From Halomonas sp. M20 (GTDB lineage Bacteria; Pseudomonadota; Gammaproteobacteria; Pseudomonadales; Halomonadaceae), in the NCBI RefSeq assembly GCF_020622265.1, contig NZ_JACNMQ010000006.1:1-64000 (forward strand): 64,000 bases of DNA, read 5' to 3'. The position numbers were made by a program, and so were the translations under genes. The notes beneath the pieces were generated by a model. The model was not told where the DNA came from and did no database searches. It saw nothing but the letters and a program-made list of their open reading frames with translations. How positions within the stretch are numbered: the stretch's first letter is position 1; every line of letters starts with the position of its first letter. Of this stretch, positions 6,003-64,000 are shown in pieces.

Positions 6003-6030
6003 CAAGGAGGAGAGAGCATTCAAGCCGGAC

Positions 6031-8712: not shown

Positions 8713-8749
8713 TCAGGGGAAGAAGGAAGCTTGGCCTGTTTCAACTAGA

Positions 8750-9505
8750 TTATTTCAACCAGATCATGCTCGCCATGCGTCCGGTGACTCCATCATCGCG
8801 ACGGTGCGAGTAGAAACGCGGCTCGCAGGCAGTGCAAAAATGACCGCCGCTGATATGTGAAACACCCAGGCGCTCCAGCCGCAGCCGCGCCAGCCGATAG
8901 AGGTCGCCCATGTAATGTCCGAGGCGATAGGGGCTGGGCTCGAACGCGCTGGCCGCCTCAGGTTGAATTGCAACGAACGTGTCGAAGACCTCTTTGCCCA
9001 CTTCGAACTGTGCGTTCGAGATGGCGGGCCCGAGCCAGACCAGCACATCCTCGGGCGCACACCCCAATGCCGCCACGCTAGCTTCGAGAACGCCATTGGC
9101 AAGCCCCCGCCAGCCTGCATGGGCGAGCCCGACCCGGCTACCCTGGCGATCGCAGAAAAACACCGGCAGGCAATCCGCGGTAAGGATCACGCAGACATAG
9201 CGTGTGTCGAAGGCAACAGCGGCATCCCCCCGGGGCGGTTTATCGACGTACTCCTGCTCATAATCCTGTAGAACATCGATACCATGCACCTGTTCAAGCC
9301 ATAGAAGCGGTCGCGCGTCATCGACCTGCGCCGCCAGCAAGCTACGGCAATGGGCCACCGTGGCCAGCTCGTCCCCCACGTGAAGCGCCGGATTGAAGGA
9401 GGCATAAGCACCCTGGCTCGGCCCGGTTTCCCGGGTAGTGATGAAGGCACCGACGGTGCTCGGCGCCGGCCAGTCCGGCAGCAGTAAGGTCGGCTGCTCG
9501 CTCAT
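8750..9505 (-). CDS. pgeF: Multicopper-oxidase-like / purine nucleoside phosphorylase (YfiH family)
   Basis: Member of the YfiH/PgeF (DUF152) family. Members are reported to act as purine nucleoside phosphorylase/adenosine deaminase or to edit peptidoglycan precursors; older annotation calls them polyphenol oxidase or laccase-domain proteins. The metal-binding motifs are present: WLEQVHG (His), TADCLPVFF (Cys) and HAGWRG (His). Its 251 residues are typical. The start overlaps the rluD stop by four bases (ATGA), and the rluD-yfiH-clpB order is the usual one in gammaproteobacteria. The biochemical activity cannot be decided from sequence alone. Confidence 0.9.
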   Translation of the reverse strand: MSEQPTLLLPDWPAPSTVGAFITTRETGPSQGAYASFNPALHVGDELATVAHCRSLLAAQVDDARPLLWLEQVHGIDVLQDYEQEYVDKPPRGDAAVAFDTRYVCVILTADCLPVFFCDRQGSRVGLAHAGWRGLANGVLEASVAALGCAPEDVLVWLGPAISNAQFEVGKEVFDTFVAIQPEAASAFEPSPYRLGHYMGDLYRLARLRLERLGVSHISGGHFCTACEPRFYSHRRDDGVTGRMASMIWLK

Positions 9506-14281: not shown

Positions 14282-17200
14282 TCAACGCAACTGATACCAG
14301 GCACTGCGCCGCCGAGCATTGCTGCCGCTATCTGACGGCCGAGGTGGGCGTCCATCTTCTTCCAGTTTCACCTCAGTAATACTTTCGGCCCCGCCTTCGC
14401 TTGTCAGCATGTTATCTTCGTGGAACGCTGGCGCCGTAGGTTCACCGCTGAGCTTGATGGACAACACCAGGCTGTCATTCACATCATCGGCTCCATCGAC
14501 CGTGCCATCCTGGTTGTAATCGAAAATCTGCTGAATGGCGTTCGACCCCGAACGCAGCGGCGCAATGCCATCGCGCAAACTGACTGCGCTTTGCCAACCG
14601 CTGCCACCCGCGGTACAGATACCCCCTGCCCCCGGCACGGTAGTGTTGAACAGCACCAGATCGCCGCGTATCGCCGGCGTCACGATCAACCGTTCACCGG
14701 CTTCGGCAAAGGGTAGATACCATCCATATCGACTCGCATCATTTTTACTGGAGTAGTCCACGCGATTACCGGTCACGGTACGAGCATCGTTGACGCCGGA
14801 AAGCGCGGTAAAACTCTGTTTCTCGAGGTCGGCGTGATAACGACGCTCTCCATCGCCCATGTGCAGCACGCTGTAGAAGGCTTGGGGCTTATCGTCTTTA
14901 TCCTGCAAACCGAGTAGCTGGCCGGTACCCCAATAGACATTGAGATTGGGTGCATCCACGGTGCTGTCGAGAACACCGTTACGCGCCACCGCCACCCGGG
15001 TGGTGATCGGTTGGCGTTGCTCAAGGGCACAGTTTGGCGATTGTGCACTCAGCGGCGTGGCACAGGACTGGAACAGACGATTCACGTCGTCGCTGCCGCT
15101 CGCTGTCAGGTCGAAATCACGCAGATCGAAGGACCAGACGTTTCCGTGAAGATCGCCGGCATAAACCCAATCAACAACACTGTCGGCGTCGAGATCCGCC
15201 ACTTCAGGGCTCGACAGACCGTTGCAGTCGCTGCCGGCAGCGATACAGGTTCCAGCATTGTTGTGACCGACGCCGGTATCCAATAGCGCGTATCGAGAAG
15301 GGTCAGCAAGATCGACGATGAATAGCTTGGCCTTGCCATCGCTGTCCGCGTTATAGCCGTTGCCGAAAATTGCGTACCAGTTGCCATCATCGAGCTTGGC
15401 CACCTGTACATCGCTGAAGCTGTAGCCGAGATCCCGGTGCGAGAACTCCCACTTGATGACATTTTCGGGCTTATCGAACCGGTCAGGATCCGTGACATCC
15501 AGCAGGTATACCGACTTGCCCCCAGCGCCAAGCCCACCTAGCAACAAGGTGTGCCAGCTCGCGTGCTCTTCTCCCGGGAGCTTGACATAAGCGTCTCGCG
15601 CCACCGGCGAGGCATTGACATAGTAGCGATGCACATAGTCCTTGCGAGCCAACTGGTGCACGCCACTGCCGGGTTCAGTACTGAATACACCGTGGGGCAT
15701 GAAGGCGAAGACCTCTTCCCCACTGATCATGTCGATGGCATGCAGCATGCCATCGTTGGCGCCCACATAGACCATGGCATCCCGGTCCTTGTAGGCAGTG
15801 CGAAAGGCCGAGTGCTTCGCACTGGCGACATCGTCATCGTAGTACCGCGTCGGCGCGCCCACGATAACGGGAGACGAGTGAACGATATCCCCTAGATACT
15901 TGCCGTTGCGGGCACGAAACTTGGTGCCTTCAGCCAGGGGGTCGCCTCTCAAGTAGTCGATCAGCGTCTGGATCTCATCGTTTGTAGCTGGCGAGCCATC
16001 ATCGAAGAAAGCCGTCAGATCAAGAAGTTGGGTTTGGCTAAACTTCCCGATCTGGTCGGCCTTGAATTCAAAGGCTTGATCGGCGGGATTTGCGGAGGGA
16101 TCGATCGTCCAGATATTGCGATTTACATGACGCTCCTTCTGGTCTGCCAATTGCTGGGAAAGTGACCACAAGGGGTCGACACTGAGTTTTCCCTGGTCAT
16201 CGAACTTGCGCGCAGTGACATCGCCCTTCCAGATTGCCGGGTCGTAGATCGTCTGGATCAAGGTGGCGTCGGCTCCTACCGAGGTACGGCTGACCGCAAG
16301 GCCGCCGGTACTTGCTGAGCGCGCCGCGATATCCCGCGCGACGTTGTTCAATGCATCGATCAATGCCTTCGGATCGGCCGCATTGAGGAACTTGCCGCGA
16401 GAATTCCAGGCGGCATGACGCAGATCGTCGATTGTGGTAAGGCTATCTCTTTCCGGCCAGGGCCAATCGAAGGGTGCATCAGGATTCTCGGGATCGTTCT
16501 CGACAGTGCCATTGACCCCGAAACCCACGGTATAGGTCACGAGATGTTGCGCCTGGTTCTCATCCACCCCCGGCACGATAGGCACCAGGTCTTCAAGGTG
16601 GGGAGAGAGATCGGTCTGATAATACTTCATGGCCACATCGGCCAGGGTATTCGAATAGTTGTCATGATCGCTCGGGCGTACCCAGGCACCGCCCTGCCTA
16701 TCGGTATTGCCCACCCACGGGGAAAAACCGTTCCAATAACCATCGGTCATCAGCACGGCGTAGTTCTGTTGGCACATGCCGCCTTCATCGGCACTCAGAA
16801 TGGGGGAATTATTACCTTTGAAGTATTCTCCTGCTCTTCTCAACGCCCAGCGTAGTGGCGTACCGCCTTCAGTCTCGGCCAGCAAGATACTGTCGACAAG
16901 GCTCTGGCGATGACTGTCTTTTAAAATATCGTCTATATCCTGCTCGTTACGCTGATGAATAGTGCGCAAACCGACCCTTGCATTGCTTTCGGCAACGATG
17001 CCCGAAAAAGCCGTTTTGGCGACCTTCATGCGGTCCCGATAATAGTGGAACCAATTGGCATAATTGGTCTTTTGCAAGCCACTCATATCACTTACATTGA
17101 CTTTATAATTATCATCCAACTTAAATTTTTCTTTTCTGGTAACATAACCGCACTCTCCAACATCATATACACCATCGCCATCATCATTCCAGCGAAGATA

Positions 17201-17602
17201 ATAGAGCCTTTCAAGGCCTTCAGCGGTTTTGTCAGCATGACCCGGCCAAGGTTCATAGCTGACGTCAGGGTCATAAGCGAGGACATTGAAGCCGCGGCAT
17301 GTGGCAATATCGGCATGGGTCTCAAAGCCATACCTATTGAAGTTATTTATTTCCCATCTCTGTTTTCCGCGACTAAATATTTTCGTGCTCTGCAAATATG
17401 ATGACGTTGGTTGTAGACCAAGGCTCTCCACACCTTTATTCAAGGTATCCTCCCAATCCATGCTTCCCGAATCATCAAGAATCAGAAGAATATTGGGCTG
17501 TACACCGGTAGCCTCGATGACCGGGGATTGGGCAATCAATCCAGGAGCAGCCAGGCAAGTAGGTGCCCAAAGACACAAGGCGACACTCAACCTAAAGCGC
17601 AT
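14282..17602 (-). CDS. pilY1: Type IV pilus tip adhesin / assembly factor PilY1
   Basis: Large exported protein (1106 residues) that sits at the pilus tip, promotes extension and, in P. aeruginosa, takes part in surface sensing. A signal peptide is followed by a von Willebrand factor A-like domain with MIDAS-type DDSGSMDWED (near residues 41-50) and MTDGYWN. The C-terminal half is a beta-propeller, the conserved PilY1 core, with GGLGAGGKSVYLLDVTDPD. Calcium-type loops are VADLDADSVVDWVYAGDLHG and, near the C-terminus, DYNQDGTVDGADDVND. The N-terminal third (about 17080-17420) is markedly A+T-rich compared with the rest, suggesting recombination of the variable adhesin part. Cotranscribed between pilX and pilY2. 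Confidence 0.95.
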   Translation of the reverse strand: MRFRLSVALCLWAPTCLAAPGLIAQSPVIEATGVQPNILLILDDSGSMDWEDTLNKGVESLGLQPTSSYLQSTKIFSRGKQRWEINNFNRYGFETHADIATCRGFNVLAYDPDVSYEPWPGHADKTAEGLERLYYLRWNDDGDGVYDVGECGYVTRKEKFKLDDNYKVNVSDMSGLQKTNYANWFHYYRDRMKVAKTAFSGIVAESNARVGLRTIHQRNEQDIDDILKDSHRQSLVDSILLAETEGGTPLRWALRRAGEYFKGNNSPILSADEGGMCQQNYAVLMTDGYWNGFSPWVGNTDRQGGAWVRPSDHDNYSNTLADVAMKYYQTDLSPHLEDLVPIVPGVDENQAQHLVTYTVGFGVNGTVENDPENPDAPFDWPWPERDSLTTIDDLRHAAWNSRGKFLNAADPKALIDALNNVARDIAARSASTGGLAVSRTSVGADATLIQTIYDPAIWKGDVTARKFDDQGKLSVDPLWSLSQQLADQKERHVNRNIWTIDPSANPADQAFEFKADQIGKFSQTQLLDLTAFFDDGSPATNDEIQTLIDYLRGDPLAEGTKFRARNGKYLGDIVHSSPVIVGAPTRYYDDDVASAKHSAFRTAYKDRDAMVYVGANDGMLHAIDMISGEEVFAFMPHGVFSTEPGSGVHQLARKDYVHRYYVNASPVARDAYVKLPGEEHASWHTLLLGGLGAGGKSVYLLDVTDPDRFDKPENVIKWEFSHRDLGYSFSDVQVAKLDDGNWYAIFGNGYNADSDGKAKLFIVDLADPSRYALLDTGVGHNNAGTCIAAGSDCNGLSSPEVADLDADSVVDWVYAGDLHGNVWSFDLRDFDLTASGSDDVNRLFQSCATPLSAQSPNCALEQRQPITTRVAVARNGVLDSTVDAPNLNVYWGTGQLLGLQDKDDKPQAFYSVLHMGDGERRYHADLEKQSFTALSGVNDARTVTGNRVDYSSKNDASRYGWYLPFAEAGERLIVTPAIRGDLVLFNTTVPGAGGICTAGGSGWQSAVSLRDGIAPLRSGSNAIQQIFDYNQDGTVDGADDVNDSLVLSIKLSGEPTAPAFHEDNMLTSEGGAESITEVKLEEDGRPPRPSDSGSNARRRSAWYQLR

Positions 17603-17607
17603 ACCGG

Positions 17608-18198
17608 TTACTCCTTGTAATAAGAAGGGTCAAGCGACATTTCACTTTGAACCACCGCCCAGGAAGATCCACTGGCCCCGGCACTGCCCAGCGCGCTGAC
17701 GCGAAAGGCCTCTTTTAATGGGTTATCAAAAGCGTTCTCAGCATTGGCCTGATTTACCGGCGCATCGCCAGAGCTACTCATTGGCATTTCGTCTAGCTTA
17801 CCCAGGTATTCGATTACATAAACGCCTATGGCGATGCCCTTTTCTTTGATCTCAATGCCATTTACCATCATGGCGTCTCGATCGGCAGCATCGAAGGGGG
17901 CTAGGTCATCAGTATTATTCAACAACCCTTTTATCCCCGTGTCTTTATCGAAGCTGCTTTCTACTTGCCAGGTGCCGTCCTTGAGATTATCCAATAGCGT
18001 TTTTTCGGCGATCACCAACGTACTTTCGGCGTTGTTGTATGCCTGTTCGTAATGGCGACTATTGAGACTCATTTTGGCCTGTAGCTGAGAGTCCTCGGCG
18101 CCGATGACGGCCAGCAGGCCGACCGCCGCCAGCATCACCAATACCACAAGCAGGGCAGCGCCTTGTTGTGCCCTAGGCTGTGTGCCGCGCGATCGCAT
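17608..18198 (-). CDS. pilX: Type IV pilus minor pilin PilX
   Basis: 196-residue PilX-type pilin. The N-terminus has the prepilin-like QQGAALLVVLVMLAAVGLL helix with conserved G-AALLV rather than the F-T-L-x-E form, as usual for PilX/GspK-like members. The soluble part contains the PilX-typical motif RHYEQAYNNAESTLVIAEK. The ATG at 18198 overlaps the pilW stop (ATGA); 49 extra upstream in-frame codons lie in pilW and are rejected. Part of the minor-pilin priming complex. Confidence 0.88.
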   Translation of the reverse strand: MRSRGTQPRAQQGAALLVVLVMLAAVGLLAVIGAEDSQLQAKMSLNSRHYEQAYNNAESTLVIAEKTLLDNLKDGTWQVESSFDKDTGIKGLLNNTDDLAPFDAADRDAMMVNGIEIKEKGIAIGVYVIEYLGKLDEMPMSSSGDAPVNQANAENAFDNPLKEAFRVSALGSAGASGSSWAVVQSEMSLDPSYYKE

Positions 18199-19139
18199 CA
18201 ACCTTCTCCCGCCAACTGCAGGTTGCGTGGTGTAAAAGTCAGATTGAAGGTACGCTCGAGGCGCCCTTGATTGGGGCCGCCAGATACCGCACCGGGTTGA
18301 CTCTGCAGCGTCAGGGCGAGTTCGATACGGCGCACCTTTTGCCAATCGTCGCCTGTCATTGAATTTGCTGCCTTGTTGGGCGTATCCACTTTTCCGTCAC
18401 CGTCAGTGTCCAGACTAAACGTGATAACAAAGCCGGTAACACCGGAGACAATTTCTTCAGCTGCGAAATCTGCCCCGACTCTATCCAGATAAAGGGAACG
18501 AATCTCTTCGTTGCCACCTTGATCGTTCAAACGTAGCGTCCAGACCTTTACGGGGTATACGTAGCTAACGGGGGATGAACCACTATTATAAAGCCTACTT
18601 AAACTGCTATCGGGATAAATACTCCCGCCCACAATTTTATCTATAATAAAGACTTCACTATTTAGACAGTCACTGAGCGAGGCCACTTTTTCTACTAAAT
18701 TTCCAGCCTCATTCAAGAATATTTTTTCGTATCCGCTTTTTAAGCTTAGCGAATTATCCTCATCCGATATGCTTTCAAGGGGAGCCCGGCCTGCTTCCTT
18801 ATCGGCAAAGACGAAGGTCATTTCCCAGTAGGAAAGACCGCGATGAGTACGCTCTTTACCACCCATGGGGAACTCAATACTATAAGGTGGGTTTTTTAAA
18901 TCGGGATCTATATAGAGATTGTTACTGGCACAGCCTGCATAGCCAATATTGCGCATCATCGGTTGCAGACGATAGGACGCATAGCGCGCGGACTCCTGCA
19001 GAAATGACAGGGCCTCCTGAGTCGAAACACTCGCCCGTGAGGTCATGAACATCTGCATCGCCAATGCGCTGATCAAAAGCCCCAGCACCAGGGAGATCAT
19101 CAACTCGACCAGGCCGGATCCTGTCTGGCGGCTTTTCAT
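18198..19139 (-). CDS. pilW: Type IV pilus minor pilin PilW
   Basis: 313-residue PilW-family prepilin: the cleavage motif G-LVELMISLVLGLLISALA with Glu at +5 and a membrane helix, then a large globular domain containing the RLQPMMRNIGYAGCAS segment typical of PilW. Stretches near 18560-18770 are notably A+T-rich, like the start of pilY1, which fits allele exchange in the surface-exposed part. Overlaps pilV by four bases and pilX by one. Acts with PilV, PilX, FimU and PilE at the pilus tip. Confidence 0.9.
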   Translation of the reverse strand: MKSRQTGSGLVELMISLVLGLLISALAMQMFMTSRASVSTQEALSFLQESARYASYRLQPMMRNIGYAGCASNNLYIDPDLKNPPYSIEFPMGGKERTHRGLSYWEMTFVFADKEAGRAPLESISDEDNSLSLKSGYEKIFLNEAGNLVEKVASLSDCLNSEVFIIDKIVGGSIYPDSSLSRLYNSGSSPVSYVYPVKVWTLRLNDQGGNEEIRSLYLDRVGADFAAEEIVSGVTGFVITFSLDTDGDGKVDTPNKAANSMTGDDWQKVRRIELALTLQSQPGAVSGGPNQGRLERTFNLTFTPRNLQLAGEG

Positions 19140-19651
19140 AACGCCACCTTGAAGCTGAATATTTGATCAACGGTGGCATCACCGCCCTTGCGTTCTTTTT
19201 CTGCAAGAGGATCCTGCCAGGTCAACCTGATTTCAACGTTTTTGACGCCATCTCCTGTATCGACATCGATGCGGCCAACACCCGAGGTGAGAGGTGAGTC
19301 GTCAATTGCCTTCGTCCAATCGGTAATATCCTGCGACACCAGCTGCGAAGGGCTGCATCCCTGTGTGCAACCACCTGATGACGCCTCGTCGGTAGATTTA
19401 CCATCATAGGTTTCCAACGCACTCAGATTGGCGCGTATCCGCTCGGCCATATCCACTGCTAAAAGCTGTGCCATCGTATTGTTATAACTTGAACGCTGAT
19501 GCTGCATGGTATTGATTTGCAGCATCCCCAGGCCCAATAGCGACACGCTGAGCAGCAACAAGGCGACCAGCACCTCGATCAGTCCTATCCCCTGTTGTTT
19601 TGACAAACGTTGTCCTGGTGCGCTCGCCCGAAGCGGTCGTCGCTGATTCAT
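19136..19651 (-). CDS. pilV: Type IV pilus minor pilin PilV
   Basis: 171-residue PilV-type prepilin with an unusually long, basic leader of about 21 residues before G-IGLIEVLVALLLLSVSL (Glu at +5). The segment MQHQRSSYNNTMAQLLAVDMAERIRAN is typical of PilV proteins, and paired Cys residues follow (GGCTQGCSP). The ATG overlaps the fimU stop (ATGA). Second gene of the operon. Confidence 0.9.
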   Translation of the reverse strand: MNQRRPLRASAPGQRLSKQQGIGLIEVLVALLLLSVSLLGLGMLQINTMQHQRSSYNNTMAQLLAVDMAERIRANLSALETYDGKSTDEASSGGCTQGCSPSQLVSQDITDWTKAIDDSPLTSGVGRIDVDTGDGVKNVEIRLTWQDPLAEKERKGGDATVDQIFSFKVAL

Positions 19652-20160
19652 GTGCAGTCCGCCTCCGTACCATCACGAACTCGAACGCGTCCTGAGGGTG
19701 CCAGCAATACTTCGCGCACGTAACCGTTGCCGCAGAAAGTCCAGGTATTATTACTGCCTCGGGCGGTTCCACGTTGGGAAAAGAATACTCGAGAACGGGA
19801 GCTCAGGATGAGCGATGATACGGTGGCATCTTTTACCCAAATGCGGGCGTCAGCAGGAACGGCACTTCCATTGCCACGATAGACGACCCAGCCATGCTGC
19901 CAGTCATCGTCTTCGCTACAATCAGAGGGGTTCGATTCGGTTGCGGTGATGGCATAAGGACATACGCTAACATCGTCGCCTTGAGAAACCGCTTCGCTAC
20001 GGGCCATGGCCAACGAACGAGTAAGCGCCCGAACGTCGTTGTCGACCTGCTGGCGCGCCATGAAACTCTGCCATGTGGGCACGGCGAAAGACGCCACGAC
20101 CGCCATCACCCCTAGAGTGGCCATCAATTCGATGAGTGTGAAGCCACGTTGCTGGCGCAC
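19648..20160 (-). CDS. fimU: GspH/FimT-family minor pilin (FimU position)
   Basis: 170-residue pseudopilin: prepilin site G-FTLIELMATLGVMAVVASFA near the very N-terminus, then a GspH-type domain (RSLAMARSEAVSQG, the DGR-like C-terminal GRVRVRDG) with four Cys. First gene of the minor-pilin operon. Its place directly before pilV is that of fimU in P. aeruginosa, but sequence alone does not separate FimU from FimT. Confidence 0.82.
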   Translation of the reverse strand: MRQQRGFTLIELMATLGVMAVVASFAVPTWQSFMARQQVDNDVRALTRSLAMARSEAVSQGDDVSVCPYAITATESNPSDCSEDDDWQHGWVVYRGNGSAVPADARIWVKDATVSSLILSSRSRVFFSQRGTARGSNNTWTFCGNGYVREVLLAPSGRVRVRDGTEADCT

Positions 20161-53487: not shown

Positions 53488-54078
53488 CTAGAACGGGATT
53501 TCGTCATCGAAATCATCGAAGCTGCCAGGATTGGGCGCACCGTAGTTATTACCCTGCTGTCCGGCACTCCCTTGGCCACCCTGAGCAGGAGGCTGTTGCG
53601 CGGGGCGCTGAGCCTGACCGCCGCCCTGCTGGCCCCCACCTTGCGGGGCATTGCCATAGCCGCCCTGTTGGCCATAGCTGTTCTGCTGGGCACCATAATT
53701 GCCCTGGGGCTGCTGAGCGTAGTCGCCACCGCCTTGAGCGCCCCGAGAATCGAGCATCTGCATGTCGTTGCCGACGATCTCGGTACTGTAGCGATCCTGG
53801 CCGTCCTGCCCTTGCCACTTGCGCGTCTGCAGACGCCCTTCGATGTAAATACGCGAACCTTTCTTGACATACTGCTGGGCGATCTCCGCCAACTTGTTGA
53901 ACAGCACGACGCTATGCCACTCGGTGCGTTCCTGACGCTGCCCGCTTTGCTTGTCTGTCCAGCTATCGGTCGTCGCGATGCGCAGATTGGCGACCGGGTT
54001 GCCGGAGGGCAAAAACCGCACATCCGGATCCTGCCCCAGGTTGCCAATCAGAATGACTTTATTCACCCCTCTAGCCAT
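53488..54078 (-). CDS. ssb: Single-stranded DNA-binding protein
   Basis: 196-residue SSB: OB-fold (residues 1 to about 110, starting [21 protein letters not shown], with [14 protein letters not shown]), a low-complexity Gly/Gln/Ala/Pro-rich linker, and the acidic tip DDFDDEIPF that recruits partner proteins. ATG at 54078 follows GGAGG. In many gammaproteobacteria ssb is divergent from uvrA; here an island begins 84 bases upstream, so that linkage is broken or shifted. Confidence 0.97.
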
Positions 54079-54162
54079 ATATTTAGCCTCCAAGCCTTTG
54101 TGATTAATAGATTTTTTCTAGTCTAGCACAGTCATCGACTACACAATATACTGCCTCTGAGC

Positions 54163-54756
54163 CTATTTTCTCATGCCCGGCAAGGAAACCGTAGCCCCCG
54201 ACAGCTCTTGGCGTAACTTTTCGGCCGCGGCTTGTGACTCCTTAAGTCGCTCTGTCCCCTTGTGGACAATTTCATACCGCCTTACGATAGAGTCGAGGGA
54301 TTCATGAGAGCCAGAGGTTTTTCCTAAAAGAATTTTTGCCAGCACATAAATATCATCATCCTTTGCTTTAGCAACTCCCAAATCTGAGCGTTTTAAAGAC
54401 TTCAACTTAATTAGCTCTGCCTCCTGCGTTACTACCTGATCGACAAGAGCTTGATTCTCCCTCTTTAACTCTCTAATTACGCCCTTCAACTCTATTACAG
54501 TTTCTTTTTTGGTAGGCCTACCTCTAAACCTTCTCTGTCTTGATGCAGCGTTATCAATCTCTGCAAGCAGGCCTTTGTAGAAATGCTCTTTTGTTACCGG
54601 GTCCTTACGATACAGCGTAGACTTCCCAACATGCCTGCCATTATCAAATAAAGCGTTATCAATTACCGCCTTTTGAGTAATTGAAACCCCTGAATCCTCA
54701 AGGTGTTTGATTGACCGCCTAATGGCATCGGAAAACTTTTCACTGCTTCTTTTCAT
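54163..54756 (-). CDS. TnpC-like (DUF6262-type) small recombinase accessory protein
   Basis: 197 residues: an N-terminal helix-turn-helix-like part with ITQKAVIDNA and GKSTLYRKDPVTKEHF (reminiscent of the TLYR turn of TetR and of Tn554 TnpC relatives), then a long coiled coil (about 85-120, VIELKGVIRELKRENQALVD) and a helical C-terminus. Last gene of the recombinase operon; its ATG overlaps the preceding stop (ATGA). In Tn554 the small third protein influences transposition frequency and orientation; that role here is inference. Confidence 0.7.
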   Translation of the reverse strand: MKRSSEKFSDAIRRSIKHLEDSGVSITQKAVIDNALFDNGRHVGKSTLYRKDPVTKEHFYKGLLAEIDNAASRQRRFRGRPTKKETVIELKGVIRELKRENQALVDQVVTQEAELIKLKSLKRSDLGVAKAKDDDIYVLAKILLGKTSGSHESLDSIVRRYEIVHKGTERLKESQAAAEKLRQELSGATVSLPGMRK

Positions 54757-56537
54757 TCTCCACCCTCCCTATCGATCAGGCGAACAATAGTTTCAGCTCT
54801 CTTAACCCCTTCTGAAGCTGCTTCATACATCATCCCTTTCTCATTCTCATGATAGCTCATGACTTTTATATGCGCGTCTCTTCGGTGCATCCAATATTCT
54901 CTACGCGTACTATCAACCCCGAAATTAGGACAACTTGCGCAAGTGATTTCGCTCCTATTTGCATAGTTCACCTTACGTCCATTCGTTGAGCATTTTGCTC
55001 TTGAGCCTCGCCCACGACTGATAAAACAGTAACCATCCGCATTGGGAATAACGCGGTACTCGTGCTTCATCATAATACTATCAACAAAATCAGACACCCT
55101 ATCGGGAGTAGCCACACTAAACCTCGCATGAAAAATTCTTTTATACTTGCTCAATGTACTGCTAATCCCTCCCGCAACTGACACATCCCCTAAAAAGATT
55201 CGCTCAAGGTAGTCGTGCGTATACTCTCTAAACCCGTCGTCGAGAAACTCTTCCACATCCTCATCGTCAACATAAGCTATTGTATAGCGATAATCGTTGT
55301 GATATAAAATATTCGACAAATACTCAAGATCCCCAACATCAAACCTCCAGCTCCACATCAAAGAAAATGCTCTTCTCATCATATGAGGCCTAACCTTGTA
55401 ATCAAGACCGGCCGCCTCTGACAAGATGTCAAACATGCGATATAGCTTATTTGTACTAATAGTGTCATCAGGCTCCTGACCTTCCTTTAACCCATAGCTA
55501 AAGGGAAGCTCGAGCAATAACTTATCACGATTGCTTGAAACTTCACGAGTAGAGCTTGTCAATGCTATTATTACAGACAAAGAGTCAATTACTTCCTTAG
55601 GCACTGGCCTAGACGTTGGCTGCCCTGTCTGCGTGCCCGCAGTTTTATGCACAACTCCTGACAAATACTCCCCTAAATATACTGAGGCTACCGCATTATC
55701 GTAGCTTATCCCGGCTGCTTCGTGCTTACGCATTGCAGTTAGAGCCATGACCAGCAAAATGGCAGAGGAATATAATAGCTTAACCTCTTTCTTGAGCATG
55801 CCAACACTTATTCCAAACTCTGATTCAAACCTCCTGTTCTTCTTTTTTCTATCAAATCTTTCACCAAAAGATGAATACCCTTTAAGAAGCGTGATCACGC
55901 GTTCTGAATCTGCAACCTTTCCCAGAGAAAAGTCTATCAGACCGAGAAACTGCCTAGGAAAAATAGTTCTTGTATGCCCCCCCTTCTTGCCCATTTTTTT
56001 TGCCACACTGACGATATCACTTACGTAGGGAGAAAACACTAAACCGTCCCCAACCTCCTCCTTCAAAGTAAACATGTAAGAAAAAATTGAAAGTTTTGTA
56101 ACAATGCTATTAACAGTAAGACCTGCTCTGAAAAAATGCCGCTCATATGCATCAACATGCATCCTGCTGACATCTTGCACTCTACTAAGCCCACATGAAA
56201 AACAAAACCATTCTGCAAGAGCCCGAACTTCTCGACAGCATAGTGCAAGAGTAGATGTTTTATTAACACTTGTCTTGTCAGACTCCATTATGAAATATGA
56301 CAGTCTTTGTGAGTACCCCTTCCACCATTCCCACCTATGAACCGAAAGAGGCGTCAGCTCGTCGTTGCGCGGAGTCCAGCTTACAGTGAAATAGGAATAT
56401 GACGAACCAGGGACCATATTCTTAAGCTTCCATCTATCACGTGTAGAGTCAGGATTTAACCACCATACATCCCCTTCATCTGAGCTTGCTTTTCCTTGCG
56501 GAGTACCATAAAAGTCTAGAAACATAGTTTCTTTCAT
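54753..56537 (-). CDS. Tyrosine recombinase (third of a trio)
   Basis: 594-residue integrase-type recombinase. Catalytic residues are visible: Arg I in LTAMRKHEAAGI, a Lys in VVHKTAGTQTG, His-x-x-Arg in VRPHMMRRAF, a second His in ILYHNDYRYT and the Tyr in TIAYV. It is much longer than a typical 300-400-residue integrase: a long N-terminal segment and a C-terminal extension with a Cys cluster (KCSTNGRK...ITCASCPNFG) that may bind zinc. Four bases after the second recombinase and overlapping the TnpC-like gene. Confidence 0.85.
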   Translation of the reverse strand: MKETMFLDFYGTPQGKASSDEGDVWWLNPDSTRDRWKLKNMVPGSSYSYFTVSWTPRNDELTPLSVHRWEWWKGYSQRLSYFIMESDKTSVNKTSTLALCCREVRALAEWFCFSCGLSRVQDVSRMHVDAYERHFFRAGLTVNSIVTKLSIFSYMFTLKEEVGDGLVFSPYVSDIVSVAKKMGKKGGHTRTIFPRQFLGLIDFSLGKVADSERVITLLKGYSSFGERFDRKKKNRRFESEFGISVGMLKKEVKLLYSSAILLVMALTAMRKHEAAGISYDNAVASVYLGEYLSGVVHKTAGTQTGQPTSRPVPKEVIDSLSVIIALTSSTREVSSNRDKLLLELPFSYGLKEGQEPDDTISTNKLYRMFDILSEAAGLDYKVRPHMMRRAFSLMWSWRFDVGDLEYLSNILYHNDYRYTIAYVDDEDVEEFLDDGFREYTHDYLERIFLGDVSVAGGISSTLSKYKRIFHARFSVATPDRVSDFVDSIMMKHEYRVIPNADGYCFISRGRGSRAKCSTNGRKVNYANRSEITCASCPNFGVDSTRREYWMHRRDAHIKVMSYHENEKGMMYEAASEGVKRAETIVRLIDREGGE

Positions 56538-56540
56538 TAT

Positions 56541-58385
56541 TCAGTCCAAAAATGGAAGATGCTGTTCGATTTCAAACGCCAATAAACTAGCTTTTTCAAC
56601 TTCTGAACGCGTACACAAGGAAACCATAGACTCATATTCTGCAAGCCTCACTTCCCAATAACCACTCCACCTCTCAGGATTATTATGTTTTAGTCTATTC
56701 ATGCTTTTCTTAATCTTGATAATCCATGCTAACCACTCAGACAAAGAGCGAGAATCTTTCAAAATTATTCGCTTAGCCTCACAATTAAAACACATGTCTA
56801 CACCCTTGCAAGTAACGCCTTCTTCGCCTTTGATACCACAAAAGTAGCCTGTACCAGTTCTTTCTCCCTCTCCCCTATTACAGCTCAGAAGGTATTCCTG
56901 GAAATTTCTTAATTTCATCTCAAGAGACGACTGTGTCTCTATTCGCAACGCATATCCAGCAGTTGTGGAAAAGTTGGCATGGTTCAACTTTTTACTCACG
57001 TCCGAAAAAGAAGAACCTTCAGCCACATCCATTGCCACAATGGTAGGTCTAAATGATTTACCTGTGATTTTTCCTATTAGTGGCCTCAAGACAGGGTAGG
57101 TTTCTGACAGGTCACGAGCAGCATACCGAACCATATCAACAGTTGAGCTTGGATCCACCAGTTTCAAACGGTAATCTTTACCTCTTTTTCCTGAAAAAAT
57201 TATAAATAGCTCACAACGCTCCTTGTTTAGCCAATTAGCGCCACCGGTAACTTCGGAAAGTAACCTTTTCTGCCTTTCCTGAAAGTTTATAAAAACCTCA
57301 CACAGCGGATCCATAACCGGCAACGTGGCATTTACAGGGCCTCCTCTCTTTTTACCAAAAAAAACGTTGATACTTCCTATCTCATTTCCTTTTTCAAACG
57401 AATTTAGGTAAGAATAGAATGCAACACTGTCAACATTTGGCAAAAGATCTTTGTGCGTTAGCGCGGCTACCAAGAAATATTTTAGGTTATTAGTACTGTT
57501 GAAAAATGCTGCAACCACTCTCGATTGAGGCCAACCTCTAGACTTAAGGTAATCACAAATTCCCGGGGGCCACTCCGAGGAAGCAGGAAGTAATCTGTTA
57601 AATCGCGCATATAAAACACCTATAGCGCCCTCGAAATTCCTGCTTGGCATTATGCTGCTTTGCCAGTTGCCTTCGCGTTCGCGAAAATCACTTACTCCTC
57701 CAAGCGCAACAACATCATCACTCCCATATTTTCTTATTGCTTTATCTATTTTTTCGCAGTCTTCCTCCCACTCCTTTATTTTCTTTATAGCTCCATGATG
57801 GAAAGCGGACAAAACCTCATTTCCGTATTTAACAATAACAGCTTCTTTCTTACCTACCCCCAACTCTTTCTGGAGACTTTCAATTTCCAGCTCTTTCTCC
57901 TTCGCGAATCGCTCCATTTCGATAGCAGACAATTCAAAGATGCTCGGATATGTTTTTTTCTTAACTCTATCAAAGTTTTTGGGTATGGCTTCATGCGCAA
58001 TAACCTCTGCAGCCATCAAACGTTTAACAAACCCTGCAGCGGCTGAATACATTTGGCTTTTCGTGTGGACGCTGACATAAAGATCTTTATCAAGATATAG
58101 TTTATATTCCAAAAGACTATTCGCGTCGACTCTACCACTTGCTTTTGCCATGAACCTCAAAAACCTTAGAATCACGTTGCCAACAGCTCTTTTTTTCCTT
58201 TGCCCTCTCAATTGCAAAGAAAGCTGCTCTTGAATTAATCTTCCTCCGGCAACATTATAAAGAAAAGATACGTCTATAGGATCTCCAGCTTCAACCTCTA
58301 ATTCCCAGCCCACATAAGGGACAACATCGATAATATCTGCTGATTTTTTTACTTTTAATTTTTCCCTAGAAAGCCTGGCCATCAA
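56541..58385 (-). CDS. Degenerate tyrosine recombinase (second of a trio)
   Basis: 614 residues with a recombinase-like C-terminal domain: KSFRPTIVAMDV corresponds to box II but has Lys for the first His, LNHANFSTTAGYAL keeps the later His and Tyr, and the Arg I region (VAALTHKDLLPN) has no Arg. So by eye two of the six catalytic residues are missing, although the reading frame is full length. A Cys cluster (YFCGIKG, VTCKGVDMCFNCEAK) follows, as in the third recombinase. Possibly a structural or DNA-binding partner. Overlaps the first recombinase by four bases. Confidence 0.75.
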   Translation of the reverse strand: MMARLSREKLKVKKSADIIDVVPYVGWELEVEAGDPIDVSFLYNVAGGRLIQEQLSLQLRGQRKKRAVGNVILRFLRFMAKASGRVDANSLLEYKLYLDKDLYVSVHTKSQMYSAAAGFVKRLMAAEVIAHEAIPKNFDRVKKKTYPSIFELSAIEMERFAKEKELEIESLQKELGVGKKEAVIVKYGNEVLSAFHHGAIKKIKEWEEDCEKIDKAIRKYGSDDVVALGGVSDFREREGNWQSSIMPSRNFEGAIGVLYARFNRLLPASSEWPPGICDYLKSRGWPQSRVVAAFFNSTNNLKYFLVAALTHKDLLPNVDSVAFYSYLNSFEKGNEIGSINVFFGKKRGGPVNATLPVMDPLCEVFINFQERQKRLLSEVTGGANWLNKERCELFIIFSGKRGKDYRLKLVDPSSTVDMVRYAARDLSETYPVLRPLIGKITGKSFRPTIVAMDVAEGSSFSDVSKKLNHANFSTTAGYALRIETQSSLEMKLRNFQEYLLSCNRGEGERTGTGYFCGIKGEEGVTCKGVDMCFNCEAKRIILKDSRSLSEWLAWIIKIKKSMNRLKHNNPERWSGYWEVRLAEYESMVSLCTRSEVEKASLLAFEIEQHLPFLD

Positions 58386-59506
58386 CTAAAATCCTCATCA
58401 AACCGTCCAGATGAATAGCCACCTAGCGAATCCACTGACTTATGCCTTGAAGATTGCCGAACATAATTTTCTGAATGTTTGATCTTCATATCATCTGCCG
58501 CCTTAAACTTAAGGCTTATGAAATTATGTCTCAACCCGTGAAGCCATACTCTCTCATCTGTTGAAAGCTGCTTATCTTCTACTGCTGTTAGGAATGCTTT
58601 TCTAACAGTGTTCGAAAATCCTCTAGGAGTACTAGGCCCGCCCGTTGCATCTGATAAAAAAATATAATCTGGCTCTAAGTAATTCTCTCGCTTTTTTTTC
58701 TGGATTTTTTTATGCTTCCTGACCACATCTCGCCTGTAAATTTCAACATACTCCCAAGTTTTAATCACAAGCAACGGCGGCACGTAAATACATCCCTCCT
58801 CTCCGCCTTTAGTAACGAAGAGCTTAATTTTTATTTTTCGTTTTTTTTCCAGTTTCTTAAAGGCTGATTCTTTGTCCGGCAACTGCCAGACCTTTAGCCC
58901 ACATATTTCATGGGCCCTGAGGCCTCCAAGACGGCCCCAATCGATCATTAGCTCGAACCTCCTAGCCAAGTCCTCTCTCTTCGGTCCATATTTTTTTATA
59001 ACTTCGATCCACTGGGTCCAAGGTGCTGAAATGGCTTTGGAGTCGCTATTTTCATTTTTAATCAAAGGGTGCTTTATGCCACCCTTCCTTCCTGCTGAAA
59101 TCTGTATGTTATACCCAATCCCTTCACCACATAGGACATCACTGAAACCCTGCTCCGTAAGCCAGCTACAGTAAAGGACCACTGTTCTAATTACTTGGCT
59201 AGCATAGTTTTGAGTATTTTCAGGTCTCTCATCATTCCGGCGGATCAAGTACTGTTTGTAAGCTGACAGCCAGTCATCGTCCACATCAAAAACATCCAGC
59301 TTATCAACTTCAAGCTGGCTATAAAAATCTGTCAAATGGACAGCATATGTTTTTACCGAGCTCACAGCACTTTTCCTGGCAAGATAAAAGATAAAATGCA
59401 ATGTCAACCAGTTTACTCTATAGTCTTCAGTAAGAATTAAAGGGAAGCCTTTGATGCTCTTCAACCCTGCTACATGAGCCTTACACGTCGTTCTAAGGTA
59501 AGCCAT
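58382..59506 (-). CDS. Tyrosine recombinase (first of a trio)
   Basis: 374 residues with all catalytic positions: Arg I in GGLRAHEICGLKV, Lys in LFVTKGGEEG, His-x-x-Arg in LHGLRHNFIS, His in SSRHKSVDS and Tyr in GGYSSG. An N-terminal SAM-like core-binding domain precedes it. The ATG at 59506 has GGGAGTGAGG just upstream and is preferred to a TTG at 59560. First gene of the operon; an A+T-rich promoter with a dyad lies upstream. Confidence 0.88.
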   Translation of the reverse strand: MAYLRTTCKAHVAGLKSIKGFPLILTEDYRVNWLTLHFIFYLARKSAVSSVKTYAVHLTDFYSQLEVDKLDVFDVDDDWLSAYKQYLIRRNDERPENTQNYASQVIRTVVLYCSWLTEQGFSDVLCGEGIGYNIQISAGRKGGIKHPLIKNENSDSKAISAPWTQWIEVIKKYGPKREDLARRFELMIDWGRLGGLRAHEICGLKVWQLPDKESAFKKLEKKRKIKIKLFVTKGGEEGCIYVPPLLVIKTWEYVEIYRRDVVRKHKKIQKKKRENYLEPDYIFLSDATGGPSTPRGFSNTVRKAFLTAVEDKQLSTDERVWLHGLRHNFISLKFKAADDMKIKHSENYVRQSSRHKSVDSLGGYSSGRFDEDFS

Positions 59507-59630
59507 AGCCCTCACTCCCGCATTTCTGTTGTATCCATCGGCGCGCAAAAGCAAGCGCAACTAGATGATTGACTAAAGTTCTTGTCATCGCAAACACAAT
59601 CTCGAAATAGTGGAAAATACCGAGAAAAAT

Positions 59631-59655
59631 ATCTTACACAAGATGGTATATTATA
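59631..59655 (-). promoter_or_regulatory. Promoter and dyad of the recombinase operon
   Basis: A perfect TATAAT reads leftward at 59655-59650 with only a T-rich -35. Just downstream, ATCTT-GTGT-AAGAT (59644-59631) forms an inverted repeat near the expected transcription start, a position suited to autorepression. The distance to the first ATG is about 125 bases. Confidence 0.4.
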
Positions 59656-59733
59656 TTTTTTGCATGTTTATAAAAAAAAAGCCGCTGCTAATAAACGTTA
59701 AATCCAGGCTGAAATAGCAGTTTCGAATAGGCG

Positions 59734-59755
59734 AAAAAAGGTGCTTCAGTACCTT
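59734..59755 (-). terminator. Displaced terminator of the SNIPE-like/CoiA-like operon
   Basis: On the minus strand AAGGTAC-TGAA-GCACCTT is followed by T residues. Its first bases repeat the sequence at the end of the CoiA-like gene (ATAAGGTACT at 61007-60998). If the IS scar is removed, the stem starts immediately after that gene's TAA stop. Confidence 0.65.
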
Positions 59756-59757
59756 AT
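59748..59757. repeat. 10-bp direct repeat, left copy
   Basis: AGTACCTTAT, identical to 60998-61007. Interpreted as the target-site duplication of the outer insertion. Confidence 0.7.
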
Positions 59758-59847
59758 GTAGTGTCTCGGATGATCAGATCGCCTATAGAAGTTATCCTCT
59801 GCTGACAGCCAAGGAGCTTCTTCGGCAATTCATTCAGGAACAGGTTC

Positions 59848-59889
59848 ATGGACATCAAGCTGCATAAACAAGCGACGACACCGAAGCTA
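59848..59889 (+). pseudogene. N-terminal remnant of an IS481-family transposase
   Basis: ATG followed by codons for MDIKLHKQATTTPK, the typical beginning of IS481-type transposases, then interrupted by the IS630-family left end, where a stop occurs at 59896-59898. The rest of the gene is missing on the other side of the insert. Confidence 0.65.
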
Positions 59890-60965
59890 AGTGCTTGACC
59901 TAAAGTCTTCGAGTAATATCCATGTCAGGTCTTCTGACACGGACGGAACCATGGAAAAGCGCTTCGTTGCCCCTCTCACTGAATCTGAACACCAGACGCA
60001 GGCCTCAGCCTATCACCATGGCGAGAAGCGCGCCCTCCGTCGCCGAGCGCATGCCATTCTACTGAGTGACCAAGGCCATACCATCAACCAAATCAGTGAG
60101 ATACTACAGGTTCGTCGTGATGCCGTGTCACGATGGTTCAAGCAATGGGAAGTGTCCGGCCTCGACGGGCTCATTGATAAGCCGCGCAGTGGGCGAACAC
60201 CCGCCCTCGACGAACACGATCACAAACGACTGCAGGCGTTGGTGGCCGAGCATCCTCATCAGATTCGAGCCTTGCAGGCTCGCTTTCAGGAAGAGACCGG
60301 TAAGACGGTCGCCACGGTAACCCTCCGACGGGCGTTGAAAAAAAACGACCATAGCTTCAAGCGCATTCGGTACTCACTGAAAGCGCGCCGTGACGAAAAG
60401 GACTTCCGCAATACACAGGGCTTGATGAAGGCGCTTCACAAGCGGGAAGACCAGGGCACGAGCTTTACTACTTTGATGAGTCAGGCTTTTCACAAGCGTC
60501 ATCGGTGCCGTATGCGTGGAGCCCGATCGGCAAGCCTTGGGAGGTAGCTGCCTACACTCACAGCCGGAGGCTAAACGTGCTGGGGTTCCTCAGTCGAGCC
60601 GGGAAGCTGGTCTACCATACGACAACCGAGACCGTAACCACGGAAACGGTCATCGAAGCGTTTGACCAGTTTGTGGCTCAGAAGGATCCAGGCACCTTCG
60701 CCGTCGTGGTGCTCGATAATGCCAGCATGCATCGCTCCAAGGCATTCAGGCGCAAGATAGTGGACTGGATGTCGCAGCGTGTGCATCTGGTCTATCTGTC
60801 TGCCTACTCACCGGAGCTGAATCTGATTGAGATTCTGTGGCGGCAGATGAAGTACACCTGGTTGCCTTTGAGCGCCTATCTCTCATTTGATCGCCTATGT
60901 AATGAGGTGCACCGCCTGCTTGGTGGCTACGGAGCTGATAACACGATTAATTTTGAATAGGCACT
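59890..60965 (+). mobile_element. IS630-family insertion sequence
   Basis: 1076-bp element flanked by TA (59888-59889 and 60966-60967), the target duplication of IS630/Tc1 elements. Imperfect terminal repeats begin AGTGC on both ends (AGTGCTTGACC... and, inverted, AGTGCCTATTC...). Base composition is closer to the core than to the surrounding island, so it probably arrived later. Carries one transposase gene in two frames. Confidence 0.75.
59951..60960 (+). pseudogene. IS630-family transposase, frameshifted
   Basis: The first frame (59951 to about 60457) encodes the HTH part (TINQISEILQVRRDAVSRWF) and leads to KREDQG; the catalytic DDE domain continues in the -1 frame from about 60457 (LYYFDESGFS), then VVLDNASMHRSKAF and SPELNLIEILW, ending at 60960. 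Catalytic residues (Asp in FDESG, Asp in VLDNAS, Glu in NLIEILW) are all kept. The shift lies in 60451-60460, with no obvious slippery heptamer, so it looks like a mutation, although some IS630 elements use programmed frameshifting. Confidence 0.75.
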
Positions 60966-60997
60966 TACTGCCCAGTACGAATTGTTCAGTGATTCTA

Positions 60998-61007
60998 AGT
61001 ACCTTAT
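60998..61007. repeat. 10-bp direct repeat, right copy
   Basis: AGTACCTTAT, identical to 59748-59757. Contains the TAA stop codon of the CoiA-like gene. Confidence 0.7.
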
Positions 61008-61858
61008 CTCCGACGATACCAAGAATGTCTGTAGAATTTCTTACGCCAGATCTGTTCCGCTAACTCATCTGCGTTTGTCGGCGTGTGGTATTGGGTTGCA
61101 TCATCAGCCGCATGGTTAGCGTATCTGGACGATCCTTTATCTTTCGCTAGCCTCATGAATTTCTCGATCTGCTTGTTTATAGCGTTCACTTCAGCCTTGA
61201 GATCCATCGACAGTAAGCGCGTCCAGCGTACACACTCAGGATGAAACACCCAGAGTGAATTATCTGGATCAAAGATATGGGCCTTCAACTCATGTAACGT
61301 ACAGTTTCTATTCACTTTGCTTAAATCAATCTCAATACACCTGATGCCGAGACTAGCTATCTTATCAAATTTAGCAGAATCGACGAAATGATTTACCGCA
61401 ATTTCTATTAGCAGCTGTCCCTCTTTATCTTCCACACAGAGGTCGGCAACAATAGTCGCCAATCGTACTTCTGGTTGTGCATTGTACACATCACATCGCT
61501 GTGACTTGTCTAATAGCTTTCTATGCTTTGTGTGCTCTTTACCATTCAAGTCATTCAGCGTGCAATTAACCGATAATTCGGGGATTGCAATGGCGGACTC
61601 GTTTAGGATTAGTTGTTTAGCTGCTAAATGAATCCCAGTTTCCGCCCCCGAGCCGCAATCTGTGTAGTTAGGTGCGTGCGCAAAGTGCCACTCTTTCTTG
61701 TCACCTAGCTTAGACCACAGTGGCATCCTGCATCCAGGACAGATACATTCACAAGACTTACCTCGTTGATTTTCACGGTCCAACTCAGAAGCATGCCAGA
61801 CGCGCCCATCCTCAACCCCGAGGCCAAAGGGGATATAGTTTGCGTGATTATTCTTCAT
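61004..61858 (-). CDS. CoiA-like protein with Cys-rich N-terminus and possible PD-(D/E)xK nuclease domain
   Basis: 284 residues. The N-terminus has a Cys cluster C36-x-C-x-C-x2-C43 and HFAH (58-61), the arrangement CP-C...K-G...HFAH seen in CoiA-type competence proteins. The middle contains IVADLCVEDKEGQLLIEIAV (Asp139, Glu152) and IRCIEIDLSK, a beta-rich pattern like a restriction-endonuclease fold. Whether the catalytic Lys is present is unclear (Lys163 or Lys166 are candidates). Its ATG lies inside the end of the SNIPE-like gene (11-base overlap), so the two proteins are translationally coupled. Function is not known; a DNA-processing partner in phage defence is inferred. Confidence 0.7.
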   Translation of the reverse strand: MKNNHANYIPFGLGVEDGRVWHASELDRENQRGKSCECICPGCRMPLWSKLGDKKEWHFAHAPNYTDCGSGAETGIHLAAKQLILNESAIAIPELSVNCTLNDLNGKEHTKHRKLLDKSQRCDVYNAQPEVRLATIVADLCVEDKEGQLLIEIAVNHFVDSAKFDKIASLGIRCIEIDLSKVNRNCTLHELKAHIFDPDNSLWVFHPECVRWTRLLSMDLKAEVNAINKQIEKFMRLAKDKGSSRYANHAADDATQYHTPTNADELAEQIWRKKFYRHSWYRRR

Positions 61859-63359
61859 TTTCTAAAAGTTCTGCGGGGAATTCTTCCACTTCCATCCTAG
61901 CGAGATATTCTTCCTGGTCACTCATCTCTGCAAGAATGGCAGAGGTTTCCCTGTACTGTTGTGCTTCAGCTTTCTTAGTTAGCTTAAGTTCCAAGCCTAA
62001 ATCCTGAACAACATCCTGGATTTCAGAGAGAGTTACATTAAAAAATTCTTTTCTGAGGTTAACCATATTTATGCGCCTGTCTGAAAATTTGCGATGCAAT
62101 GTATTCTCAAGTCCCGGCGCATTATCCGAGTACACCATGCCATGCACATCAAATGGGAAAGGTACAGATGCACCCCCAAGCTCACGTATTCGGTCTGATG
62201 GATCTAAGCGGCGAGTCATTCCTATTTTGAATACCTCTTCACCGAAACACCCAATATTTGAGATAATGTAAACATGCCCTGCCCGTGTTAGTTGTGCTTG
62301 TGAAAGCGCCCTTTCCTTCCTTGCTATCGCTTCATCCAAATGAGCCTGTATCTCAGAAACCTTTCGCTCGGCTTCCCCCTTCTCGATATATCCAGCCTCA
62401 TCTAGGTCTTTTCTGGCTTTACGAAGCGCTCGCTCGTAGTTTGCTCTATCCTGATCAGCCTTTTTCGTTGCTTTTTCTACATCCTTTTGAAGCTTGGCCT
62501 CTTCACGCATAGCCTCACGAATTTGACGCTGTTCTTCTTTCTCTTCATGTATTTTTAACTTCAGTTCATAATGAAGCTGGAATTCTTTAAGTTTGTGCTC
62601 AAGATATGTCTCAGTTATCTCAATGTCATTTGATTTACCAAGCTTATTAATAGCATTGAATGACTTCTGTATGCGTTGCTTCATGATGGTGGCATTATTC
62701 CATGTTACTTTCACCATTGCAGCATCGCATTCACCGTTAAACGCTCTGAGCATAAGCTTTGCTTGGCGCTTTGTCATGGTTCTTCCTTTTACTAGGCTGT
62801 CCCCCACGCTCCAGACCGTACTACAGCTCCAAGCCAAGTCATACTTAATATCCTCTTTTTGCTCCCTGCTAATATCAAGAAGCGCTTCTTTGAACTCGTC
62901 AGAATGCTGATAGGTGAAATGTGGGCGATAAACACCGTATGTCATGCACTCCAAATCCTCCTCTTGCTCTGAAATTCTTTTCCTAAGCTCATCATATGTA
63001 ATTTTATAGTTTTTGTAATTTTTAGACAACTTACTTATTCTGGATTTAAATTTGTAATACTCCAATTCTAGATTTTTATTTTTATTTTGGTATTCTTTTT
63101 CAAGCTCCTTCTCATGCTCTTCTATGTTCCTAATTTTTGAAAATCTAGCAAACTCATTTTCCAAATAGTCACGCCATTCTTTTTGTATTTTTTTTACCTC
63201 AACCTGGTGAAGCACTTTTGACAACCTGTATTCTTCTAAAGACTTTGCCTGCCTTATTTTGTAAGTATTACTGATTCTATGGATTTTGTAATGTAGATAG
63301 GCAATATATAAGAATAAAGCTGAAAGAGGGATGGCTAAATATAAAGCAGGTATTCCCAT
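61848..63359 (-). CDS. SNIPE-like membrane-anchored DUF4041 + GIY-YIG nuclease (anti-phage)
   Basis: 503 residues: one N-terminal membrane helix (about 4-22), a long coiled coil (38-136), a DUF4041 domain (about 137-260; YGVYRPHFTYQHSDEFKEAL, LMLRAFNGECDAAMVKV), a second charged helical stretch (260-355), and a T5orf172/MUG113-type GIY-YIG domain (361-445) with HVYIISN, FKIGMT, Arg390 and Glu418 in GLENTLHRKF. The same order occurs in SNIPE, reported to sit in the inner membrane and cut phage DNA as it enters. ATG at 63359 with AAGG upstream. First gene of a two-gene operon with the CoiA-like protein. Confidence 0.82.
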   Translation of the reverse strand: MGIPALYLAIPLSALFLYIAYLHYKIHRISNTYKIRQAKSLEEYRLSKVLHQVEVKKIQKEWRDYLENEFARFSKIRNIEEHEKELEKEYQNKNKNLELEYYKFKSRISKLSKNYKNYKITYDELRKRISEQEEDLECMTYGVYRPHFTYQHSDEFKEALLDISREQKEDIKYDLAWSCSTVWSVGDSLVKGRTMTKRQAKLMLRAFNGECDAAMVKVTWNNATIMKQRIQKSFNAINKLGKSNDIEITETYLEHKLKEFQLHYELKLKIHEEKEEQRQIREAMREEAKLQKDVEKATKKADQDRANYERALRKARKDLDEAGYIEKGEAERKVSEIQAHLDEAIARKERALSQAQLTRAGHVYIISNIGCFGEEVFKIGMTRRLDPSDRIRELGGASVPFPFDVHGMVYSDNAPGLENTLHRKFSDRRINMVNLRKEFFNVTLSEIQDVVQDLGLELKLTKKAEAQQYRETSAILAEMSDQEEYLARMEVEEFPAELLENEE

Positions 63360-63551
63360 TACACACCTTTAAGCATCGTATGATCCTGATGTTAAATTAT
63401 AATCGACTTATTGAGGTAATACCAGCATTAGCATAGACTGATCATTGTCCTTTTCGACCGACTGATGTTTAAAAACAATTGACTTAAACGGCACAAACAC
63501 ATTCGAACGGCACGGTAACCCCGCTTATATGTAACTGATTCATACGCATTA

Positions 63552-63716
63552 TCACGGCTGCTTGTGAGGAACAGCCACACTTAACCAGGGCTTAACCAGA
63601 CCTAGCATTGCAGGGTTCTTAAGCACATAGGTGATTTCCCTGTCCACTGCATCGGCAGCGCCTTGATTTTCTAGCTGGTCCAGCAAGGCCTCTTCACCTC
63701 GGCCCCGCGCAGCGAG
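63552..63716 (-). pseudogene. Possible gene remnant (C-terminal fragment)
   Basis: A 54-codon frame without a start, bounded by stops, with protein-like composition (RGEEALLDQLENQGAADAVD, then REITYVLKNPAMLGLVKPWL). No family recognised. Could be the tail of a decayed island gene. Confidence 0.3.
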
Positions 63717-63752
63717 TTAAGCTAGGAGGGCCAGCTTAATTCTCGGTGGGCC

Positions 63753-63902
63753 CTAATAACCCGCTATGTCCTCTTGCCGTTCTACTGATTGCATCGCCTT
63801 CATTAGCTTATAAGCTGGTCCATTACCGTCATAAACGATCCGCTTAATCACTTCAAAATCGATAGCAAGACATGTTTTCCTGAAGTTTCTATACGTTCGA
63901 AG
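63753..63902 (-). pseudogene. Possible gene remnant
   Basis: About 49 codons between stops without a convincing start, with protein-like content (CLAIDFEVIKRIVYDGNGPA, then YKLMKAMQSVERQEDIAGY). No family recognised. Same strand as the previous fragment. Confidence 0.25.
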
Positions 63903-64000
63903 GCTTTAAGACCATCAGTTCAATATGGATATTCCGCCCAGTATTCTTTTTCTGGCAAGCCCTACGCCCCTATACGTCTATTATCATTGTTCTACTATGT

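Follow-up and report, generated by a model that had tools for sequence, protein, structure and literature searches.

An overlapping SNIPE and CoiA-like gene pair

The window analysed here is a stretch of 64,000 nucleotides from Halomonas sp. M20. Two overlapping open reading frames lie on its minus strand, encoding proteins of 503 residues (P0001, 61848-63359) and 284 residues (P0002, 61004-61858). P0001 is a SNIPE (PD-Lambda-1) homologue and matches the PADLOC profile over its full length (5.1e-167, residues 14-493 against profile positions 13-486 of 491). Pfam recognizes the domains DUF4041, T5orf172 and MUG113. The protein likely begins with a membrane helix at about residues 1-24 (63288..63359), as judged by hydropathy alone, with the three best Kyte-Doolittle windows (window 19, mean 1.82-1.87) starting at residues 1-3. 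A basic stretch rich in lysine and arginine follows at residues 25-45, and the topology would fit an outside N-terminus and an inside C-terminus. DUF4041 occupies residues 201-256 (62592..62759; PF13250, 9.4e-25), and alignment and Pfam place a GIY-YIG domain of the T5orf172 type at residues 361-452 (62004..62279). The residues that we take to be catalytic in this domain are well kept: across an alignment of 36 SNIPE sequences that contains P0001, Y364, K378-I379-G380 and R383 occur in every row and E418 in 34 rows. E418 likely corresponds to E414 of the published SNIPE. The preliminary description had read P0001 as a SNIPE-type nuclease with an N-terminal membrane helix, DUF4041 and GIY-YIG, and all of these parts are present. 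P0001 is probably an ordinary SNIPE that works alone, as published. Its N-terminal helix would sit in the inner membrane, with DUF4041 and the nuclease in the cytoplasm, and the protein would cut phage DNA during injection, a function assigned here because P0001 is homologous to the E. coli protein for which others have shown it.

P0002 is CoiA-like by Pfam, alignment and structure model. Its CoiA_N zinc finger (PF25164; Pfam match at residues 31-68, 61655..61768; 2.8e-9, 36.8 bits against a cut-off of 26.3) contains C36, C38, C40, C43, H61 and C68. In an alignment of 70 rows, which took 69 of 76 relatives from 80 loci, C38, C40, C43 and C68 are kept throughout, H61 in 69 rows and C36 in 68. 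Beyond CoiA_N, P0002 has no further match over a Pfam cut-off, and searches against PADLOC and NCBIfam returned nothing at E<=1, with no defence model matched. The predicted structure (pLDDT 89) suggests a PD-(D/E)XK-like core at residues 71-205 (61244..61648) with D139, E152, K81 and K163. D139 and E152 are found in 70/70 rows, and K81 and K163 are invariant as well. The active-site positions read A138, D139, E152 and A154, and the PD-EXQ pattern is not matched. The usual lysine two residues past E152 is an alanine, as is the proline of the PD motif; position 154 is alanine in 49/70 rows and otherwise arginine, phenylalanine, threonine or glycine. P0002 is therefore called CoiA-like and not CoiA in the strict sense. 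The Cys/His N-terminus noticed earlier holds up, and the nuclease-like core proposed for the second protein appears likely. We infer a soluble DNA-cutting or DNA-processing enzyme, a zinc-finger protein that is probably an active nuclease working independently of SNIPE. Catalysis by P0002 is a prediction, against which the alanines at the usual lysine and at the PD proline count.

Only one other short CoiA-like gene with the C-terminus of P0002 was seen (G118:C17:8359-9076, locus L061). It is broken into two frames, and its genome has no SNIPE. In the open reading frame list of the window, inspection by eye revealed no com gene beside the pair. Type IV pilus minor-pilin-like genes may take part in DNA uptake, and genes that we take by eye to be of this kind lie 40 kb from the pair (14282-20160).

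The two genes overlap by 11 bases (61848..61858), and the ATG of the second falls within the last SNIPE codons. No anti-Shine-Dalgarno pairing is predicted at the P0002 start; equally weak starts occur in 4 of 31 long open reading frames of the window, a rough control based on mechanically assigned first starts. Because of the overlap and the missing predicted pairing, translation of P0002 probably re-initiates on the shared message once ribosomes have terminated at the SNIPE stop codon. The translational coupling proposed earlier is thus plausible. The overlap together with the missing ribosome site suggests selected co-expression, which counts against a reading of two independent proteins. 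In favour of that reading, the genes are unlike in composition, with GC contents of 39.6% versus 45.4%.

A genomic island inserted at ssb

Homology of the window to five relatives (G073, G122, G110, G118 and G038) stops at 54078/54079, placing the left junction of an island (54076..54081) at the start codon of the native ssb (54078-54076, minus strand). G073 was the single relative whose empty site was inspected; there, ssb is preceded by a transporter gene. The window genome has the counterpart of this gene at contig position 173967-175355. The right junction ends at position 173743 of contig C12 with an imperfect copy of the initial 26 bases of ssb, 22/26 being alike by eye. The island in the window genome accordingly extends over about 119.7 kb, from window position 54079 to position 173743 of C12. 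The genome G083 has the same right island end, and the island measures about 66.7 kb there. Since homology to relatives breaks at ssb and the ssb repeat stands at the far end, the SNIPE and CoiA-like pair is carried as cargo by the island, some 7-9 kb inside its left end and beside a recombinase operon. GC content is 45-46% in the first 10 kb of the island, 58% in the chromosomal part of the window and 55-68% in most of the remaining island. Given these differences between its parts, the island may be composite.

The operon at the left end (54163..59560, minus strand) is of tyrosine-recombinase type and consists of four genes encoding 197, 594, 614 and 392 residues. Phage_integrase is matched over the cut-off in the 594-residue protein and under it in the 392-residue protein, where a SAM-like domain is over the cut-off. 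The 594-, 614- and 392-residue proteins have weak XerA-type NCBIfam matches, all under cut-off, and the 197-residue protein has no match over a cut-off. For the 614-residue protein (56541-58385), neither Pfam at E<=1 nor the plasmid search gave a match. Between operon and pair lies an IS630-type transposase in two overlapping frames on the plus strand (59891..60960; DDE_3, 5.8e-30; transpos_IS630, 7.2e-27, just under cut-off). Near the far island end, contig C12 carries a full-length PD-Lambda-4_A homologue of 1283 residues (164725-168576; L239:7726-11574) and two more integrase-type genes.

The CoiA-like protein could serve the island or other incoming DNA and not defence, with its position behind SNIPE being incidental. 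The pair adjoins the recombinase operon, and 1476 plasmid records match P0002, mostly as distant relatives, with 1250 of them predicted to be conjugative. However, no transfer gene is named in the eight plasmid regions examined, in which many genes are labelled 'hypothetical'. Among ten large neighbours of CoiA-like genes, four match models for restriction or defence and one more matches a WYL regulator model, though these neighbours were picked by size and 4/10 is not a rate. We consider this service role unlikely. The neighbours at loci L126, L128, L150 and L184 are a type ISP/IIG restriction enzyme, a helicase-nuclease, a type II restriction enzyme and a protein with a PtuB-like C-terminus.

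Recurrence of the pair and related arrangements

In a family sample of 201 genomes, P0002 has matches in 23 and P0001 in 20, including two weak GIY matches (G195 and G198) that were tallied and not counted as SNIPE. Five genomes have both, and in three (G000, G051 and G083) the genes are adjacent. In a class sample of 369 genomes, P0001 matches 17 and P0002 matches 11, and both occur only in the window genome; 11 of the 17 are weak matches to the GIY part and a twelfth (G325) is a fragment, none of which were counted as SNIPE. All genome tallies are lower bounds, as part of the candidates was scored (for CoiA_N mostly 16 of up to 46). Of 178 CoiA-like loci found in genome contigs, 80 were kept. 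SNIPE is present in two, L112 (Modicisalibacter ilicicola) and L113 (uncultured Halomonas), which correspond to G051 and G083 and carry the same block, and no SNIPE was found beside the 78 others within the available flanks. Conversely, 0/44 other SNIPE loci have a CoiA-like open reading frame in the available flanks (E<=0.1, default filters). These loci come from genomes, viral contigs (partly near-copies), one E. coli chromosome and plasmids, after exclusion of one fragment (L204) from 45. With filters off, a CoiA-like match at 0.062 appeared in one opposite-strand open reading frame, which lies about 5 kb away from the SNIPE of its locus.

The three adjacent pairs lie in a block that is 100% identical (54053..64000 in the window). 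Between G000 and G083 identity is complete from window position 54053 up to contig position 64992; G051 agrees fully with G000 over the compared part, past contig position 71000. Identity is 70-85% to the left of the block and 88-90% to the right of it in G083. Because identity is complete amid surroundings of 70-90%, the three pairs are not independent and represent a single DNA block, probably from one joining event. In G051, an insertion element that is presumably IS30-like has split the SNIPE gene near codon 77 and duplicated 3 bases of the target. Both contigs (L058/L059) end inside the element, and the CoiA-like gene is intact.

We suggest as the best explanation, and consider it fairly probable, that a single-protein SNIPE and an independent CoiA-like nuclease were joined once on the ssb island. 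This island integrates at the ssb start codon, and the genes would have spread together only through its recent transfer. The two nucleases may add up against foreign DNA, and interaction would not be needed. The preliminary description had proposed that the two genes form a system and that their linkage in unrelated genomes would decide the matter; the linkage found is confined to one block and the samples searched hold no independent pair, so the proposal is not supported. The pairing has the look of one local arrangement rather than of a two-part defence system with a wide distribution, and the CoiA-like neighbour is unreplicated. A tempting two-gene reading can thus be a single island event, with one block in three species not amounting to three witnesses. 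The locus contributes a further SNIPE, its motif intact, from salt-loving Halomonadaceae, carried on a large ssb island.

Alternatively, the genes might constitute an entry defence of two components, with the CoiA-like nuclease degrading or processing the DNA ends that SNIPE leaves when it cuts at the membrane. The overlap and the coupled start speak for this, as does the predicted nuclease-like core of P0002. The lack of any independent SNIPE-CoiA pair in the samples speaks against it, and E. coli SNIPE protects alone (PMC13190303). We regard cooperation of this kind as rather unlikely. Were the two proteins to cooperate, this would be the first case, within the searches made, of a SNIPE accompanied by a second nuclease, and the fate of phage DNA after the first cut would be shown. 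It is very improbable that the CoiA-like protein restrains SNIPE or shields host DNA from it. The gene order and the coupled translation resemble toxin-antidote pairs, yet none of the 44 other SNIPE loci has a CoiA-like gene in the available flanks and the published SNIPE is checked by its own membrane anchor (PMC13190303). The intact CoiA-like gene beside the broken SNIPE in G051 is neutral in this respect.

Close associations of CoiA_N with T5orf172 domains are a weak counter-signal to a flat accident. Among 398 genomes of the phylum, CoiA_N matches 24, T5orf172 matches 77 and both match five, with the domains within 5 kb only in the window genome and in G881. In G881, a single 429-residue open reading frame carries both domains over the Pfam cut-offs (L256:439-1728). 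For the four genomes with both domains besides that of the window, 0.021 close cases are expected by chance and one was seen, in a post hoc test. The fusion speaks for a two-component defence. It lacks DUF4041 and, as judged by eye, a PD-(D/E)XK core between the domains, and hence links only the zinc finger to the GIY-YIG domain, which speaks against such a defence. A second case (L166) comes from a Verrucomicrobiae MAG, where an open reading frame of 1314 residues (3960-7904) with a C-terminal T5orf172 domain, the single one found in that genome, is followed after 63 bases by a CoiA-like open reading frame (7968-8921). This is the sole one of the 78 other CoiA-like loci with a T5orf172 domain in the available flanks. 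None of the other CoiA-like relatives, plasmid-borne or genomic, was found to have a GIY-YIG open reading frame beside it, with many flanks spanning only 1.5 kb. Fusion and pair hint at a possible partnership of such domains, and the pair, too, speaks for a two-component defence. DUF4041 plays no part in either case, and both may only show the zinc finger travelling with nucleases. CoiA_N zinc-finger proteins and T5orf172 GIY-YIG nucleases could form a loose functional class, with members fused in L256, adjacent in L166 and joined here to a SNIPE. The locus described here would then be a two-nuclease entry defence in which the finger protein finds or trims the injected DNA once it is cut, a reading that we find rather doubtful.

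Other arrangements were seen around SNIPE. A small basic gene (93-147 residues, starting M/L/V-ARR-x-SG) lies 1-4 bases upstream of SNIPE in 7/44 loci (L069, L077, L078, L081, L084, L280 and L281). These loci occur in Halomonadaceae genomes, in another gammaproteobacterium and on plasmids of Vibrio harveyi and Pseudoalteromonas; both plasmid loci were found by searching with the small gene itself. Three tested copies gave no Pfam match at 0.01, and the SNIPE locus of the window is without such a gene. The small gene and SNIPE look like a true recurrent two-gene arrangement, seen in several orders, and this is a better candidate for a two-part SNIPE than the pair with the CoiA-like gene. On a Hymenobacter plasmid (L282), a TerB-family gene lies 11 bases upstream of SNIPE. 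On a Bacteroides plasmid (L284), a hypothetical gene of 121 residues lies 1 base upstream.

Comparison with known systems

CoiA proteins were earlier predicted to be PD-(D/E)XK nucleases with the active site PD-EXQ (PMC1189080). P0002 has the zinc-finger N-terminus in common with this family and probably also the PD-(D/E)XK-like core that its structure model suggests, but differs in having alanine at position 154 and its lysines K81 and K163 elsewhere. A CoiA domain is also found among the proteins of 21 phage-protective E. coli systems (Vassallo et al. 2022, PMC9519451). In that defence screen, the DUF4041 protein and the CoiA-domain protein belong to different systems. Given that P0002 has no PADLOC match at E<=1, no direct kinship to the CoiA-domain system is shown. 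The fusion of L256 brings CoiA_N and a SNIPE-type GIY-YIG domain together, as at the locus described here, but in one chain and without DUF4041.

SNIPE of E. coli is an inner-membrane protein that cuts phage DNA during injection, as shown in a study (Saxton et al. 2026, PMC13190303) whose main text contains neither 'CoiA' nor 'two-gene'. Two SNIPE homologues of Streptococcus thermophilus are 98.5% alike, with one conferring strong resistance and the other none (PMC12322248), so not every SNIPE homologue protects. E. coli SNIPE shares the N-terminal membrane helix, DUF4041 and the C-terminal GIY-YIG domain with P0001, and the Halomonas locus differs from it in the overlapping CoiA-like gene that follows.
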